DNA of 47,861 nt from Aminobacter sp. AP02 (GTDB taxonomy: Bacteria > Pseudomonadota > Alphaproteobacteria > Rhizobiales > Rhizobiaceae). The DNA lies in contig NZ_QGGX01000027.1 of assembly GCF_003148805.1 (NCBI RefSeq), positions 1 through 47,861 of the forward strand. Reading direction: 5' to 3'. A model generated the notes under the pieces. It had not been told where the DNA came from, ran no database searches, and was given only the letters and a program-made list of their open reading frames with translations. The translations under genes and the position numbers were made by a program. Shown one piece after another: positions 42,137 through 47,818 of the stretch (position 1 is its first letter; each line of letters opens with the position of its first letter).

Positions 42137-42182
42137 GCGGCGATCTGCCACTCAGGGATCTACGGATATGGCTGGACAGACT

Positions 42183-42212
42183 GCCGCAACAACGTCTTGA
42201 GGTTGCTGCGGC
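42183..42212. repeat. Hairpin between the broken cyclase gene and the exporter gene
   Basis: GCCGCAACAAC (42183-42193) pairs with GTTGCTGCGGC (42202-42212) with one mismatch in 11 and an eight-base loop. No T-tract follows on either strand. It lies downstream of the cyclase and upstream of the exporter on the minus strand. Confidence 0.5.
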
Positions 42213-42370
42213 TTACTTGTCCGAGGTCTTGGCTGTGCCCATGTTCGTCTCGCGGATAGCGCGTGCACTTTCGGAAATTCGCCAGTCCATTACCAGCCTG
42301 ATTGGTCTGGAACAACCCGGGCTGGGATGAAGGCCGCACGCTTGCATGCCATCGCTGGCGTCCGTCGCCG

Positions 42371-43449
42371 TCAAGCGGCGCGATGGTTTTGCATGTCGCC
42401 GGCGTCGTCTGGCTTGAAAATCCGAAACGTGTTTCGCCCTGCGGCCTTGGCAGCATAGAGCGCGGTGTCGGCCTGGACGTGCAGGTCACAGAGGGTGTTC
42501 TGGGCGAACAGCGCGATGCCGACCGAGGCACCAAGCCTGAGCGAACTGCCACGGTGCTCGATGGGCCTGCCGAGCGTCTCGATGATATCGCGCGCAAGTT
42601 CGGAAACAGCGGCCAGGTCGAACTGCGCTCCCACCAGCACGGCAAACTCGTCGCCGCCGATGCGCGAGACGAGCTCCACACCAGCACAGGCTGATTCCAG
42701 TCGCCGGGCACGTGCCTGAGGCACTCGTCGCCCGTGACATGGCCGAACGTGTCGTTGATCTGCTTGAAGCCGTCGAGATCGACCAGAAGCAACGCGCCAT
42801 GCGCGGACCGATCCGCGCAGCAGGCGGTCAGCTCCGCCAGCTTCTTCTGGAACTGGCTACGGTTGGCGAGCCCGGTCATGACGTCGAATTCGGCGAGATA
42901 GCGCGTCTGGTCGGCCAGTATCTTCTCTTCGGTGATATCCTGCTTCATGCCGAAGATGCGCACCGCGATGCCATCCTCGCTTTCGACGCTGGCGGTGATG
43001 CGTATCCAGCGGCGATTGCCCTTCACCGTCACGATTTCGGCGTCCAGGCCGAATCCGGTGCGCTCCTCGATTCCCTTGCTGCGCCTGACATGCAGTTCGG
43101 CGGCCGACGCGGCCGTGTAGCACTTGACGATTTCCTCGCGGATGAGTGCGGATCCGCGCGGAAGATCGAAGATGTCGTAGACGACATCTGTCCAATGCAG
43201 TGACTGGTCGGCAAGGTTGCATTGCCATACGCCGATCCGGGCGGCGGCCGATGATCTTTCGAAGATTTTCTGACTATGCGCAAGCGAGGCCGCTTGGGCG
43301 CTGATGAGCGCAGCCTGTTCTTCCAACTGGGCCTTGAGTTTGGTGATCGTGACAGCTTCATGCCGCCGGCGAACGCCCGGACGCCCGATCTTTTGTTTGG
43401 ACAGCCCCCGCTGCATGATGAAGCTCAGTCGCCTTCCTTGATGATGCAT
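42371..43449 (-). pseudogene. PAS-GGDEF diguanylate cyclase, frameshifted
   Basis: A PAS-type sensory domain (ERSSAAARIGVWQCNL to FGMKQDITEEK) is followed by a GGDEF domain that starts normally (FDVMTGLANRSQFQKKL, LLVDLDGFKQINDTFGHV). The frame is lost at about 42708-42711, after GDECLRHV. The rest of the domain, ARRLESACAGVELVSRIGGDEF onward to the end at 42371, is intact in another frame. Restoring one G at that point gives a complete cyclase with a perfect GGDEF. In the present frame the protein would run on as nonsense to 42160. The start is ATG 43449 or 43416. It may be a true inactivation or a sequencing error. Confidence 0.85.
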
Positions 43450-43718: not shown

Positions 43719-43967
43719 ATGGTTTCGCGCGTGCGCACTGTCGCGTTCCAGGGCATCGAGGCGGTTCCCGTCGACGTGCAGGTGATGGTGGCGCCTGGCA
43801 AGGTGGGCATGCATATCGTCGGCCTGCCCGACAAGGCAGTCGCCGAAAGCCGCGAGCGGGTGCAGGCGGCGCTCCACGCCTCGGGCCTGTCGATGCCGGC
43901 CAAGAAGGTCACCGTCAATCTCGCGCCCGCCGACCTGCCCAAGGAGGGAGACCTACTGCCATATTGA
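43719..43967 (+). pseudogene. comM: comM (yifB), truncated by island insertion
   Basis: The first 77 or so codons of a ComM/YifB magnesium-chelatase-like AAA+ protein: MVSRVRTVAFQGIEAVPVDV, the HIVGLPDKAVAESRERV block and NLAPADLPKEG. ComM is a branch-migration helicase acting in natural transformation and has about 510 residues, so over 80 percent is missing here. Similarity stops at KEG (about 43949); four or five foreign codons and a stop follow. GGAGG lies seven bases before the ATG at 43719; the ATG at 43692 lacks a site. The rest of comM should lie beyond the other end of the island. Confidence 0.9.
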
Positions 43968-44041
43968 TATCAGTATCCTGATCCTTAAGCAGCTGAAAAG
44001 ACGACGAGATTCGATACTCGGGGATTGGATATCATTATCCT
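43966..44041. repeat. Direct repeats at the island edge (possible recombinase sites)
   Basis: GATATCAGTATCCT (43966-43979) and GATATCATTATCCT (44028-44041) are alike at 13 of 14 positions and lie 62 bp apart. Each contains an inverted core, GATA-TCA(G/T)-TATC, and the second extends to GGATA-TCAT-TATCC. Their place right at the island edge suggests recombinase arm or core sites. Confidence 0.55.
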
Positions 44042-44558: not shown

Positions 44559-46637
44559 TTGGATAATAATCTGAAAAATATCGGGCGAGGTCGCGGCCCA
44601 AGAAATCCTCATAACGAAAACGGGCAAAATGTCCGTGATCTGAAAAGTGATTTTACCGACGAAGCGAGTGCGTCCCGCCCACGATTCTCATTTTGCATCA
44701 CCGGACATCCCTTTTCATACCACCTAACAGCGCTCATGCCGTATTTTGGCGAAAAGTTTTGCCAGCGGTTTGAACGCGCTTGGAGGAATGCGGCCACCTT
44801 TCAGAGCGGACCGACCTCAAACAATTACTTCAAAGCGGCCCGCACGGCCTTTCTACTCATTGGCCGAAGAGGGGCGGCCGAACCCACGTCAGCGGAAGGC
44901 ACAATTCTTCGAGGGTTTCGTGACGGGCCGAAATGGATTCCGAGCGACCAAGAGTGGGCAGCGATACTAGCTAATTTGGCAGGGGCAATACTTACCCTTA
45001 GCGACGACTCCTTCATAAGCAAGGGAAGCGCAGAGAGTCGGAACAAAAAGTTCGAGTCTCTCCGTTCTGCGCTTCGATGGCTCTCTGGCCAAGGTCTGAT
45101 CCCGGAAATCGAGCTAGAAGGAAACCGACTTCGCGAAGAGTTCGGGGCAGCCTCAAAGTGTCTGGCGACGATCAAATTCGAAGCGGGGAGGTTCGATATC
45201 TCAGGCCTGAGCTTGCGTGAGGCGTCCAACAGGTTTTCTACCTGTAACAGGGAAATGCTTGACGAGCTGCGGAAACAGCTCTGGATCGAGCTTAAAGAGA
45301 ACTTGGATCTCTATGAGCAGGGCCAAGTGCTCATGAGCGACCCCACCTTGCCAGATTTTCCCGAAGTCGAAAACCTACTCACTCTGTATTCGCGAGTAGG
45401 CCTCAGAAGCAAGAAACATCACGAGACCCTCGGGTTTTCCCGGCAGCAAGCGTTAGGATTAGCCCTGAAAATATTCAGGCATCGCTCAATCAAAGGAAAC
45501 TCGACTTCACTGAAGGCAATCGAATTTGCGAGATCGATTATCGGAAACGATGAAGCGCAGCCCTATTATGAGGCGACCAACAAGAGTCTGAATGCAGCTT
45601 ACCATATTATTCTGATCGACCTAGGTGCGAACTGCCAGCCTACCGATGATATCCCGTATGAATGCTACTCCGACAAACCTCGGAGAGGAAGGATAAGGGT
45701 CCGAAGCGTTCGCCTTAATAAGAACAGGAGCAACGGCAAAGCCGTTCCTGGTGTTCTTAAGGAAGACATTTCCGAGACAGAGCTATTCTTAGCGACGAAG
45801 AACTTACCAGACCGCCCGTCTGGCGTGGTGATTATAGAGATATGGAAAAAGCTCACTGCTTCCATGAGAAGTCGGACGGGACTGACAGCTGAGCGTCTGT
45901 GGGTTTGGCGCAATGCTGGCTGGTCTGAAGTCCGAACTTCACTGGTGTCCATGTCATCTGACCGATGGCCTGCCTTCCTCGCGCGACATGCGGAAAACGA
46001 GGTGTTTGGCGGACTCCAAATCACTCGGCAAAGCATTCGAACTGCCGTCCGTAACGCCAGAGGCGAAGCTGGACATCTTGATATCGCGGTAGAGCAAGCG
46101 CTTATGGGCCATTCCAGCGCGAAGACAACATTCGAGTATCTGAGCGAAGGAGCTACAAGATCGCTTCTCGAAAGCCAGATAAGGGATTTCATAGATGCTT
46201 GGGAGGCCGTGAGCGTTCGCGATATCGATTCTGCAGCACAACTGCTGGGAATCCCGTCAGCAGAGCTTTCCAATCGAGCACAACTTGGTATTGAAAACGG
46301 CTTAGCCATTTTAGCTAGTCGGGCAGAGGAGCGCACGAGCTCTGCCCCTCGCGATTCTTCTCCGGTTCTTTCGAAGGCTGCTCAAGAGTTTTCCATTTCG
46401 ACTGTCTCCATGACAAACCTTGAATTGGCGCGTCGCGCACTCCGCCAACAATTCGAGATCATGGTGAACGTGAACCCTCAGCGGTTCGTCCGAAAATGGC
46501 TACCCTGGATGGCGATAGTAGAAGGTTACTGCGCACGCTTAGAGCAGAGCCGCTTCCGCCTTCAGTTCTCTAGAGTCTGCAAGGATGTAGACCAACACCT
46601 ATACGAAGGCTCCTTAAGGATACCATTGCTATGGTAG
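44559..46637 (+). CDS. Large non-canonical tyrosine recombinase
   Basis: A 692-residue protein. Only the catalytic end is recognisable: QSIR (Gln491-Arg494, in place of the usual H-x-x-R), then LMGHSSAKTTFEYL with His518 and the nucleophile candidate Tyr527, at the normal nine-residue spacing. The first catalytic Arg is not certain (perhaps in SRTGLTAERLW). About 490 residues precede the box and 165 follow it, far larger than phage or XerC/D-type integrases. The start is probably TTG 44559, without a good ribosome site. It overlaps the next gene by seven bases. It probably drives integration of the island into comM. Confidence 0.78.
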   Translation: MDNNLKNIGRGRGPRNPHNENGQNVRDLKSDFTDEASASRPRFSFCITGHPFSYHLTALMPYFGEKFCQRFERAWRNAATFQSGPTSNNYFKAARTAFLLIGRRGAAEPTSAEGTILRGFRDGPKWIPSDQEWAAILANLAGAILTLSDDSFISKGSAESRNKKFESLRSALRWLSGQGLIPEIELEGNRLREEFGAASKCLATIKFEAGRFDISGLSLREASNRFSTCNREMLDELRKQLWIELKENLDLYEQGQVLMSDPTLPDFPEVENLLTLYSRVGLRSKKHHETLGFSRQQALGLALKIFRHRSIKGNSTSLKAIEFARSIIGNDEAQPYYEATNKSLNAAYHIILIDLGANCQPTDDIPYECYSDKPRRGRIRVRSVRLNKNRSNGKAVPGVLKEDISETELFLATKNLPDRPSGVVIIEIWKKLTASMRSRTGLTAERLWVWRNAGWSEVRTSLVSMSSDRWPAFLARHAENEVFGGLQITRQSIRTAVRNARGEAGHLDIAVEQALMGHSSAKTTFEYLSEGATRSLLESQIRDFIDAWEAVSVRDIDSAAQLLGIPSAELSNRAQLGIENGLAILASRAEERTSSAPRDSSPVLSKAAQEFSISTVSMTNLELARRALRQQFEIMVNVNPQRFVRKWLPWMAIVEGYCARLEQSRFRLQFSRVCKDVDQHLYEGSLRIPLLW

Positions 46638-47818
46638 TCAACTCACCACAACTATCTTCTCACTCTTGCTCGCAGCACGATGAAATCTTAGGAGCGCTTT
46701 CCAAACCACACTGGCTTGTCGAGGGTAGGCTGCTAGATAACCAGTGGAGTGTGCAAATCGGGGATGCTGAGAACGAACGCCCGCTGTTTGTGGATTTTGA
46801 TCAGCCGATTACACCCTGGCCAGATGCAAAATCTCTCACCGATCCTGCTTTCGAGCTTGATCTAATCACGATCAAGCTCATTTTCGTCCTCGCACTAAAA
46901 CCGAAGCCATTAGGGTGGATCACATCTAGAATATCTGTAGGCCCTAATATCGTAAACAACTACATAGATTTTATTCGTTGGCGCACCGACAGAGGTGTCT
47001 TGAACAACAAATCACTCAACGCCGCTTGGTTCAATGAGTATGATGCCTCGTTGAAGCGCTGTTCGCGCGAAGGTCTTTTGAATCTTACCAGTCGGGCGAA
47101 GTCCATCTTGCAGGCTGTCGGGAGAAAAGCGATCAAGCTGCCTGTTGATGTTAGGGGAGACATTTCCGGTGATGCGCTAGCCAAGTTGTTGGGGGTTGGA
47201 GGCGCTACATCTGTCACACCGGAGGCACGTCAATACATAGAAGTATATTTTAAAGAAAAGAGACTCCGTTACACTCGCAATTCACGAGAACGAGCGACAC
47301 CGCTGCCGCTGGGCGGTGATGTCGTTACTACGGCTGCTTCACGACACTATAAGGTGTGGTACGATCTCTGGCGTTTACGCAGTTATCTTTCCCACGATCC
47401 TATCGGCTATCGAGCTTTCAAGACCCGTAGAGAGGTCTCTAGGCATTGTCGAAAATTCTTTCGCGATTCCGTTCGTACTGAGGATGCTCCGGCCTACCAG
47501 ACAAGCTTCCTAATAAATGCATCTCTGAAACTTCTCTTGGACCCGATTGCCAAGAAGCTCGTCGATTTGGTCACATATGGGGTTGATGATGAAGGCTCGC
47601 TCAAGAACAAAGACCTTCTTCGCGAGTGCAATCAGCGACTTATCGCGCTAGGATTTTCAGCGTTATCGCAGACCTACCATCTTTATCGTGGGAGGAAGGT
47701 AGACGGAACGACGCTCCATCAAATGTTGTTCAGAATCTTGCCAATGGCGGCACGTGTCATAACTGCTGAACCGCCCCGGGTTTGCCGGAGGCTCCAACTT
47801 TTGAGAGATTGGAGCTGA
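46631..47818 (+). pseudogene. Second recombinase-operon gene, cut by an IS3-family element
   Basis: The frame encodes 395 residues, but only about the first 378 are native; from 47767 the codons come from the end of an insertion sequence (last native residues ARVITA). The native part has no named domain. Its mixed alpha-helical N-terminus (DFIRWRTDRGVLNN, LNAAWFNEYDASLKR) looks like the DNA-binding arm of a long tyrosine recombinase whose catalytic part would lie beyond the insertion; this is inference. The ATG lies within the end of the first recombinase gene, so the two are coupled. Confidence 0.65.

Follow-up and report, generated by a model that had tools for sequence, protein, structure and literature searches.

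Probable SE/GInt-like integrative element in comM of Aminobacter sp. AP02, with a rearranged four-gene recombinase operon

The end of one contig of Aminobacter sp. AP02 raises the question of which kind of mobile element carries the two long, overlapping genes found there. The contig (NZ_QGGX01000027.1, hereafter C27) is one of the 72 in which the 5.6-Mb genome is assembled, and was analysed over its whole 47,861 nucleotides, which we call the window. A preliminary description of this DNA had reported a 692-residue tyrosine recombinase overlapping a second long gene by seven bases, and had proposed a multi-recombinase element that might be a GInt relative or a separate family. We confirmed the 692-aa frame at 44559-46637, with a TTG start, the 395-aa frame at 46631-47818, and the 7-bp overlap between them (46631-46637). 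Homologs of both frames occur in the same order in other genomes, indicating that the gene pair is more than chance. The proposal was borne out in part: the two genes open a four-gene recombination operon. With the proteins of the published SE and GInt families compared by description, this operon very probably belongs to an SE/GInt-like integrative element of about 24 kb, inserted in comM and representing a separate, rearranged lineage. The features concerned are as follows.

43719..43946, + strand: 5′ part of comM/yifB (Mg-chelatase-like ATPase; PF13541, E 6.4e-20), the target, cut in its KEG codons
43947..43952: 6 bp at the left end, GGAGAC; same-genus comM has, in the same register, GGCAGC (7/8) or GGGAGC (1/8)
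43953..43965: left terminal repeat, CTACTGCCATATT
43966-43978 and 44028-44040: subterminal repeats, GATATCAGTATCC and GATATCATTATCC, respectively
44559..46637, + strand: gene 1, 692 aa, Tfp/GinC-like, Arg I replaced by Asn, QxxR and GH..Y retained
46631..47766, + strand: gene 2, IntB/GinB-like large tyrosine recombinase by motif, interrupted N-terminal part
47764..47766: TGC target duplication of an insertion sequence, repeated at the start of the flank on contig C56
47767..47861: left end of this insertion sequence, which splits gene 2 and terminates the contig; the 95-bp end recurs unchanged on contigs C48, C23 and C13
L004:14496-14508 (contig C20), opposite strand: right terminal repeat, CTTCTGCCACATT, 11/13 identical to the left one

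The insertion sequence starting at 47767, which we take to be IS3-like, splits gene 2 at 47766, and the remainder of the operon therefore lies beyond it. Its opposite end opens three contigs (C56, C8 and C7), among which C56 resumes gene 2 in frame past the 3-bp duplication TGC. Gene 2 accounts for only some 378 N-terminal residues of the 395-residue frame, whose remainder reads into the insertion sequence; its C-terminal 354 aa, with the catalytic motifs, are on C56 (L017:97-1158), and the two parts were analysed separately throughout. After gene 2, C56 carries a 148-aa frame (gene 3) and a 482-aa tyrosine recombinase (gene 4), followed by a frame for a trypsin-like protease and by the beginning of a protein of DUF1254 type. 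Since gene 2 is split, the window copy is presumably immobile on its own.

Related loci were collected from genomes and plasmids. Among 397 genomes of the host's order, 11 had a match to the gene-2 profile at E <= 1e-6, one of them being the window's own genome. A second profile, built from five rows of window type, found 5 matching genomes among 398 of the phylum at E <= 1e-10, including the window's own and G272. Plasmid loci were compared from Azospirillum argentinense, Rhodovastum atsumiense, Mesorhizobium loti, Methylomonas sp., Alteromonas mediterranea, Lichenicola cladoniae (fragment only), Cupriavidus metallidurans, Pseudomonas putida, Bradyrhizobium sp. and Sphingobium yanoikuyae. Of 108 pattern matches, a single one was confirmed as a locus, in the genome of Pseudoduganella umbonata.

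Gene 4 is an ordinary tyrosine recombinase, which carries R..HxxR..GH..Y and matches PF00589 (E 3.4e-6) at 27.4 bits, marginally above the cut-off of 27.1; in BLASTP it matched its Azospirillum counterpart at 3e-15. By motif, gene 2 would be a large tyrosine recombinase (ARRDDEI ... HQFR ... RHFNPETTRGY), with Arg I and Tyr present in 22/22 rows and four invariant Cys near the C-terminus in a seven-row alignment. Its C-terminal part gave BLASTP matches to G023 (2e-25) and to Azospirillum and Rhodovastum (8e-19), and a chance-level match (E 0.021) in Pfam when E values up to 10 were allowed; tblastn of its N-terminal part against plasmids gave no match. Gene 3 is small, and matched its Rhodovastum and Azospirillum counterparts weakly, at about 1e-5.

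For gene 1, the QxxR (ITRQSIR) and GH-nine-Y (GHSSAKTTFEY) motifs noted earlier were confirmed. Asn (LGANCQP) occupies the Arg I position, so that two classical catalytic residues are absent. Across 21 Tfp rows this column holds Arg in none, Asn in 18, Glu in two and Ser in one, and Arg II and Tyr are retained in 21/21 and the His of GH in 20/21. The 692-aa protein is encoded by the first gene of the operon and is not the lead recombinase: it lacks Arg I and corresponds to the recombinase-fold partner of Tfp/GinC type, and the ordinary recombinase stands last. In BLASTP it matched Rhodovastum (E 3e-11), and an integrase SAM-like domain was matched in one of six family members, the window member not among them. 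We found no family for gene 1 in Pfam, NCBIfam or PADLOC, and none for the window part of gene 2 in Pfam or NCBIfam. Searches with gene 1 by tblastn against plasmids and in a scan of viral contigs gave no match, and phmmer against solved structures returned two Rad50 chains (E 0.43 and 0.6) and nothing else. The motifs in register and weak profile matches suggest that gene 1 is kin to tyrosine recombinases and Tfp/GinC-like.

This gene content bears on a recombinase in trio (RIT) element, to which three recombinase-type genes with short overlaps would be familiar. The preliminary description had already remarked on a misfit to RIT trios, and we found the same on other grounds: a small fourth gene stands between the recombinase genes, Arg I is missing from gene 1, and the operon is followed by cargo and a distant right end. 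RIT identity, to which we give almost no credence, was refuted on gene content and size.

The target gene is split between two contigs. The comM model TIGR00368 aligns over its positions 4-74 at window 43740-43952 and over positions 74-499 at C20:14510-15778, while comM is unbroken across the cut in 8/9 other genomes of the genus (L070-L077); in the ninth, G008, which is 81% complete, the comM probe had a short match only. The operon starts about 0.6 kb inside the left end. The start of C20 seems to carry on the DUF1254/1214 protein begun on C56, with about 60 codons absent relative to a paralogue, and C56 and C20 are probably neighbours. About 23 kb of island sequence is in hand, and an insertion sequence of ordinary size plus the gap would bring it to about 24 kb. 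The subterminal repeats are candidate arm-type binding sites, and GGATATCG occurs near the right end of the island too.

The island carries as cargo a SIR2-HerA anti-phage defence pair (L004:5087-8205 on C20; PADLOC HerA 468 bits, SIR2 285 bits). Further frames on C20 encode an AAA+ protein, an M41 peptidase, a DUF4238 protein and a helix-turn-helix (HTH) protein, and the remaining cargo comprises the trypsin-like protease and DUF1254/DUF1214 proteins. We also observed that the AAA+ ATPase and M41 (FtsH-type) peptidase frames adjoin each other near the right end (L004:10865-13464), and that the ATPase frame matches IetA models as well. Outside the island and adjoining comM, a minus-strand frame with a frame break (42160-43449) presumably encodes a PAS/GGDEF protein, judged from its motifs, with the GGDEF motif in an overlapping frame at 42371-42724.

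Clustered integrases could also be left by happenstance in a decayed prophage or in an integrative and conjugative or mobilizable element (ICE/IME). The tyrosine recombinase motifs would fit such an origin, as would the GC content of the three island pieces (49.7, 52.4 and 54.8%, against 63.0% in the flank) and the match of the HerA frame to the conjugation coupling-protein domain TrwB_AAD_bind (E 2e-6). However, that same frame is the PADLOC HerA beside SIR2, no phage structural or relaxase family was found among 10 island cargo frames scanned with Pfam, and genes 1 and 2 matched at best one PHROG (gene 1, an integrase, E 0.12). The four-gene set, moreover, recurs elsewhere with its order kept. 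We regard this origin as very improbable.

The relatives show which host genes are entered; we assigned the names thyA, bcp and resolvase by motif. G023 and G272 each have the host thyA interrupted at its FLGVP motif, with a second, complete thyA upstream of gene 1. G239 has a complete thyA directly before gene 1 and a further thyA-like stretch past gene 4; its cut host gene was not found. Three related elements of different genera (L013, L056 and L057) have a complete thyA frame ahead of their recombinase operon. In G352 and G366, elements of about 25.3 and 25.7 kb are inserted in a peroxiredoxin gene (bcp) at YFYPK. In Azospirillum, the left flank reads as part of a serine resolvase gene that is interrupted at YARVSTE; in Rhodovastum, it reads as a gene annotated SNF2-related, cut before GLGKT.

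The 6-bp spacers are clear at two thyA insertions. The 39-kb element of G023 has 13-bp ends, TTTTCCGACATCA, that are 13/13 identical, with spacers CCCTTC and CCGTTC. In G434, of the same genus, a 1.7-kb insertion (L113:1036-2750) lies at that thyA site. It is bounded on either side by TTTTCCGACATC, its ends being those of the 39-kb element, and has the spacers CGGACA on the left and CCCTTC on the right. This insertion carries a thyA frame and a 143-aa frame, and no recombinase gene was found by the four profiles in the 40 kb read.

These hexamers allowed us to compare the two ends with the native site. In same-genus G433 the native hexamer is CCCTTC, the right-hand spacer of G434. At bcp, G352/G366 have AAGATC on the left and AAGGAC on the right, and five relatives read have native AAGGAC or AAGGAT. 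At comM in the window, the right hexamer AGCAGC has 1 mismatch to the common native GGCAGC, and the left hexamer GGAGAC has 3. The foreign hexamer thus appears to be at the left end at three targets (thyA, bcp and comM). G272 has CCGAGG at its left end and its right end was not found; the two hexamers of G023 are uninformative on polarity. The cases are few, G352 and G366 possibly represent one insertion event, and G434 has no operon of its own, so that 'left' there means the 5′ side of thyA, as in G023. Moreover, in the window, G352/G366, G023 and G272, the side from which the operon starts is also the 5′ side of the target, and therefore polarity relative to the operon and to the target cannot be separated. 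In SEs, the native hexamer lies beside the operon-proximal end and the donor hexamer at the far end (PMC10214605). The apparent left-end position of the foreign hexamer at three targets is the reverse of this rule.

Gene order was assigned by profile matches, with A, B, D and tfp denoting genes like gene 4, gene 2, gene 3 and gene 1, at the loci apart from three matches of the phylum search (G679, G695 and G721) and most plasmid matches. The order tfp-B-D-A is contiguous at six loci: the window, G023, Azospirillum, G272, G239 and Pseudoduganella. Rhodovastum has tfp-B-D, four intervening genes and then A. In G352 and G366, scanned over the whole elements, the left end carries tfp-B-D and the right end carries A (524 aa; 322 and 327 bits); G352 has in addition two 295-aa frames with weak A matches. 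The order A-tfp-B was found at 12 loci, namely Methylomonas, Mesorhizobium, G362, G132, G315 (two), G297, G137, Cupriavidus, P. putida, Bradyrhizobium and Sphingobium. D was recognised after B by profile in 7 of these 12; in the other 5, a frame of 116-178 aa that the D profile did not recognise starts close to where B ends. In G197, A is upstream of B and no Tfp was recognised. The Alteromonas mediterranea plasmid (L021) fits neither order well: a Tfp-like gene, B and the small gene D are followed by two more genes, the second for an AAA ATPase, and then by A as a separate integrase gene.

The two orders are also separated in trees. In the gene-2 C-terminal tree, 8 window-type rows stand against 12 A-first rows, G197 included, with support 98/97; in the full-length gene-2 tree with Pseudoduganella added, 9 stand against 12 (SH-aLRT 100), and in the Tfp tree 9 against 11 (support 98). 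The trees are unrooted; Alteromonas was included, belongs to neither group and falls on the window side. G315b, a near-copy of G137, was omitted from the gene-2 and Tfp trees alike, and G197 from the Tfp tree. The A-downstream group is one side of a supported branch in both the gene-2 and the Tfp trees and spans comM, thyA and bcp, indicating that the arrangement is inherited.

This bears on whether the loci are plain members of the published SE (or GInt) family, with the position of gene 4 an unimportant local rearrangement. The gene set is of the type described for SEs and GInts (PMC10214605 and PMC5385486), as are the imperfect end repeats, the specificity for targets, the design of the cargo and, clearly in G023 and G434, the 6-bp junctions. 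In G352/G366 (L082 and L084), the stop codon of A is about 10 bp from the right junction, so a circle would place A beside tfp and restore the SE order. Inheritance of the arrangement across three targets argues against plain membership, as does the apparent presence of the foreign hexamer at the end where the operon starts, a place taken in SEs by the native hexamer; in addition, PMC10214605 reports that Alpha- and Betaproteobacteria have no homologs of SE Tfp or Srap. We consider plain membership unlikely. The SE/GInt-like element of a rearranged lineage, our preferred reading, could be taken further, and we find the case evenly poised that these loci form a separate family of islands in Alpha- and Betaproteobacteria. 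Such a family would have its attachment ends between the ordinary recombinase gene and tfp and a reversed polarity of the 6-bp footprint; some members would bring a replacement target gene, and tiny recombinase-less derivatives (1.7 kb, thyA only) would share the same ends. In this evenly poised case, the recombinase gene at the far end of G352/G366 would give the SE order in the circle only, and in the window type the gene would have come to follow the other three.

Several observations weigh against reading the locus as an SE/GInt-like element of a separate lineage. Concerning gene 1, an Arg lies one position ahead of the Arg I column in 2/21 Tfp rows (G132 and P. putida), so the assignment of this column is not beyond doubt. 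The Tfp profile matched solved structures weakly (XerA E 0.084, XerD 0.36, with unrelated matches at E 0.40-0.42), a gene 1 model from a two-row alignment had a mean pLDDT of 34.0, and hhalign of the Tfp against the gene-4 alignment gave a probability of 3.5%. Concerning gene 2, the first His of HxxR is absent in 8/22 rows (present in 14/22, the window included), and hhalign against the gene-4 alignment gave 8.7%. The best solved-structure matches of its profile are tyrosine recombinases, the best at a weak E of 0.0072, and the model of its C-terminal part, also from a two-row alignment, had a mean pLDDT of 34.1; gene 2 is thus assigned as a recombinase by motif and weak profile matches. At the ends, the 6-bp spacers of comM and bcp can be fitted to the host only if the two end repeats are offset from each other by about 2 nt, and those of bcp (G352/G366) are poor. 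The window rows are long branches that join another long branch in one tree, for which the tree tool warned that the window and Alteromonas are possibly falsely joined. Finally, the element is on three contigs, with the C56-C20 join drawn from the one DUF1254/1214 protein and its missing codons.

On the reading as an SE/GInt-like element, the order from the left end would be Tfp-like, IntB-like, Srap-like and IntA-like genes, then cargo, then the right end. Genes 2 and 4, with their catalytic motifs, would work on the element's terminal repeats and on the target in the host, where the cuts would flank a 6-bp spacer and strands would be exchanged. Gene 1 may serve as a partner on the core sites without cutting by itself, and gene 3 as an auxiliary factor; these biochemical roles, like a circular intermediate, are predicted from sequence. 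Insertion is into conserved codons of particular protein genes, and in the thyA relatives the second complete thyA would keep the enzyme available, presumably as a replacement.

The four-gene SE-type set thus occurs in Alpha- and Betaproteobacteria, together with a second lineage that is probably rearranged. If hexamer polarity is truly reversed, with the ordinary recombinase gene on the other side, the question of which recombinase is responsible for the strand bias becomes open to direct study. The thyA members resemble a natural case in which an element breaks an important gene and brings another copy. The change of Arg I to Asn with Tyr retained (18/21 Tfp rows) raises the question of what job such a near-enzyme has.

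Among the matches listed in a search of titles and abstract openings of the open-licence literature, we found no account of this arrangement, of SEs in Alphaproteobacteria, or of thyA/comM islands. PMC10214605 reports SEs confined to Gammaproteobacteria, with neither SE nor GInt core blocks found in Alphaproteobacteria, whereas PMC5385486 mentions gin operons in Alphaproteobacteria; the host range is thus already disputed. The SEs (SE-6283 and SE-6945) are described as having four core genes, namely two motif-bearing recombinases, a motif-less recombinase-fold protein and a small auxiliary, with imperfect terminal repeats, a 6-bp spacer, specific targets and far-side cargo (PMC10214605). Counterparts of intA, tfp, intB and srap are all present in our own locus set for the window, with gene 2 split and the SEs compared by description. 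The SE order from the left end is intA-tfp-intB-srap, whereas the window type has its intA-like gene downstream of tfp-intB-srap. SE ends are imperfect inverted repeats of 13-19 bp, a description that suits the ends of the window element (11/13) and of G023 (13/13); those of G352/G366 are poor. Recombination of attL with attR in SEs gives a circle and no empty site. The present loci differ from SEs in occurring in Alpha- and Betaproteobacteria, in the foreign hexamer apparently at the operon-start rather than the far end, and in Tfp-like rows that retain Arg II, Tyr and, with one exception, His. GInts (ginABCD) likewise have three recombinase-type genes and a small protein, large cargo, specific insertion, and a GinC without the first Arg (PMC5385486); however, ginA is first and the degenerate protein third, whereas here the degenerate protein comes first and the ordinary recombinase last. 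Tn554 (tnpA, tnpB and tnpC) resembles the locus in an ordinary and a large recombinase, a small auxiliary and a 6-bp footprint, and differs in having no Tfp counterpart and another gene order, gene 1 opening the operon here (PMC10214605). RITs, described in PMC3414803 as three adjacent, overlapping recombinase genes of about 3,500 bp in total with a possible catalytic motif per family, share adjacent recombinase genes with short overlaps, and differ in having neither a fourth core gene nor large cargo.

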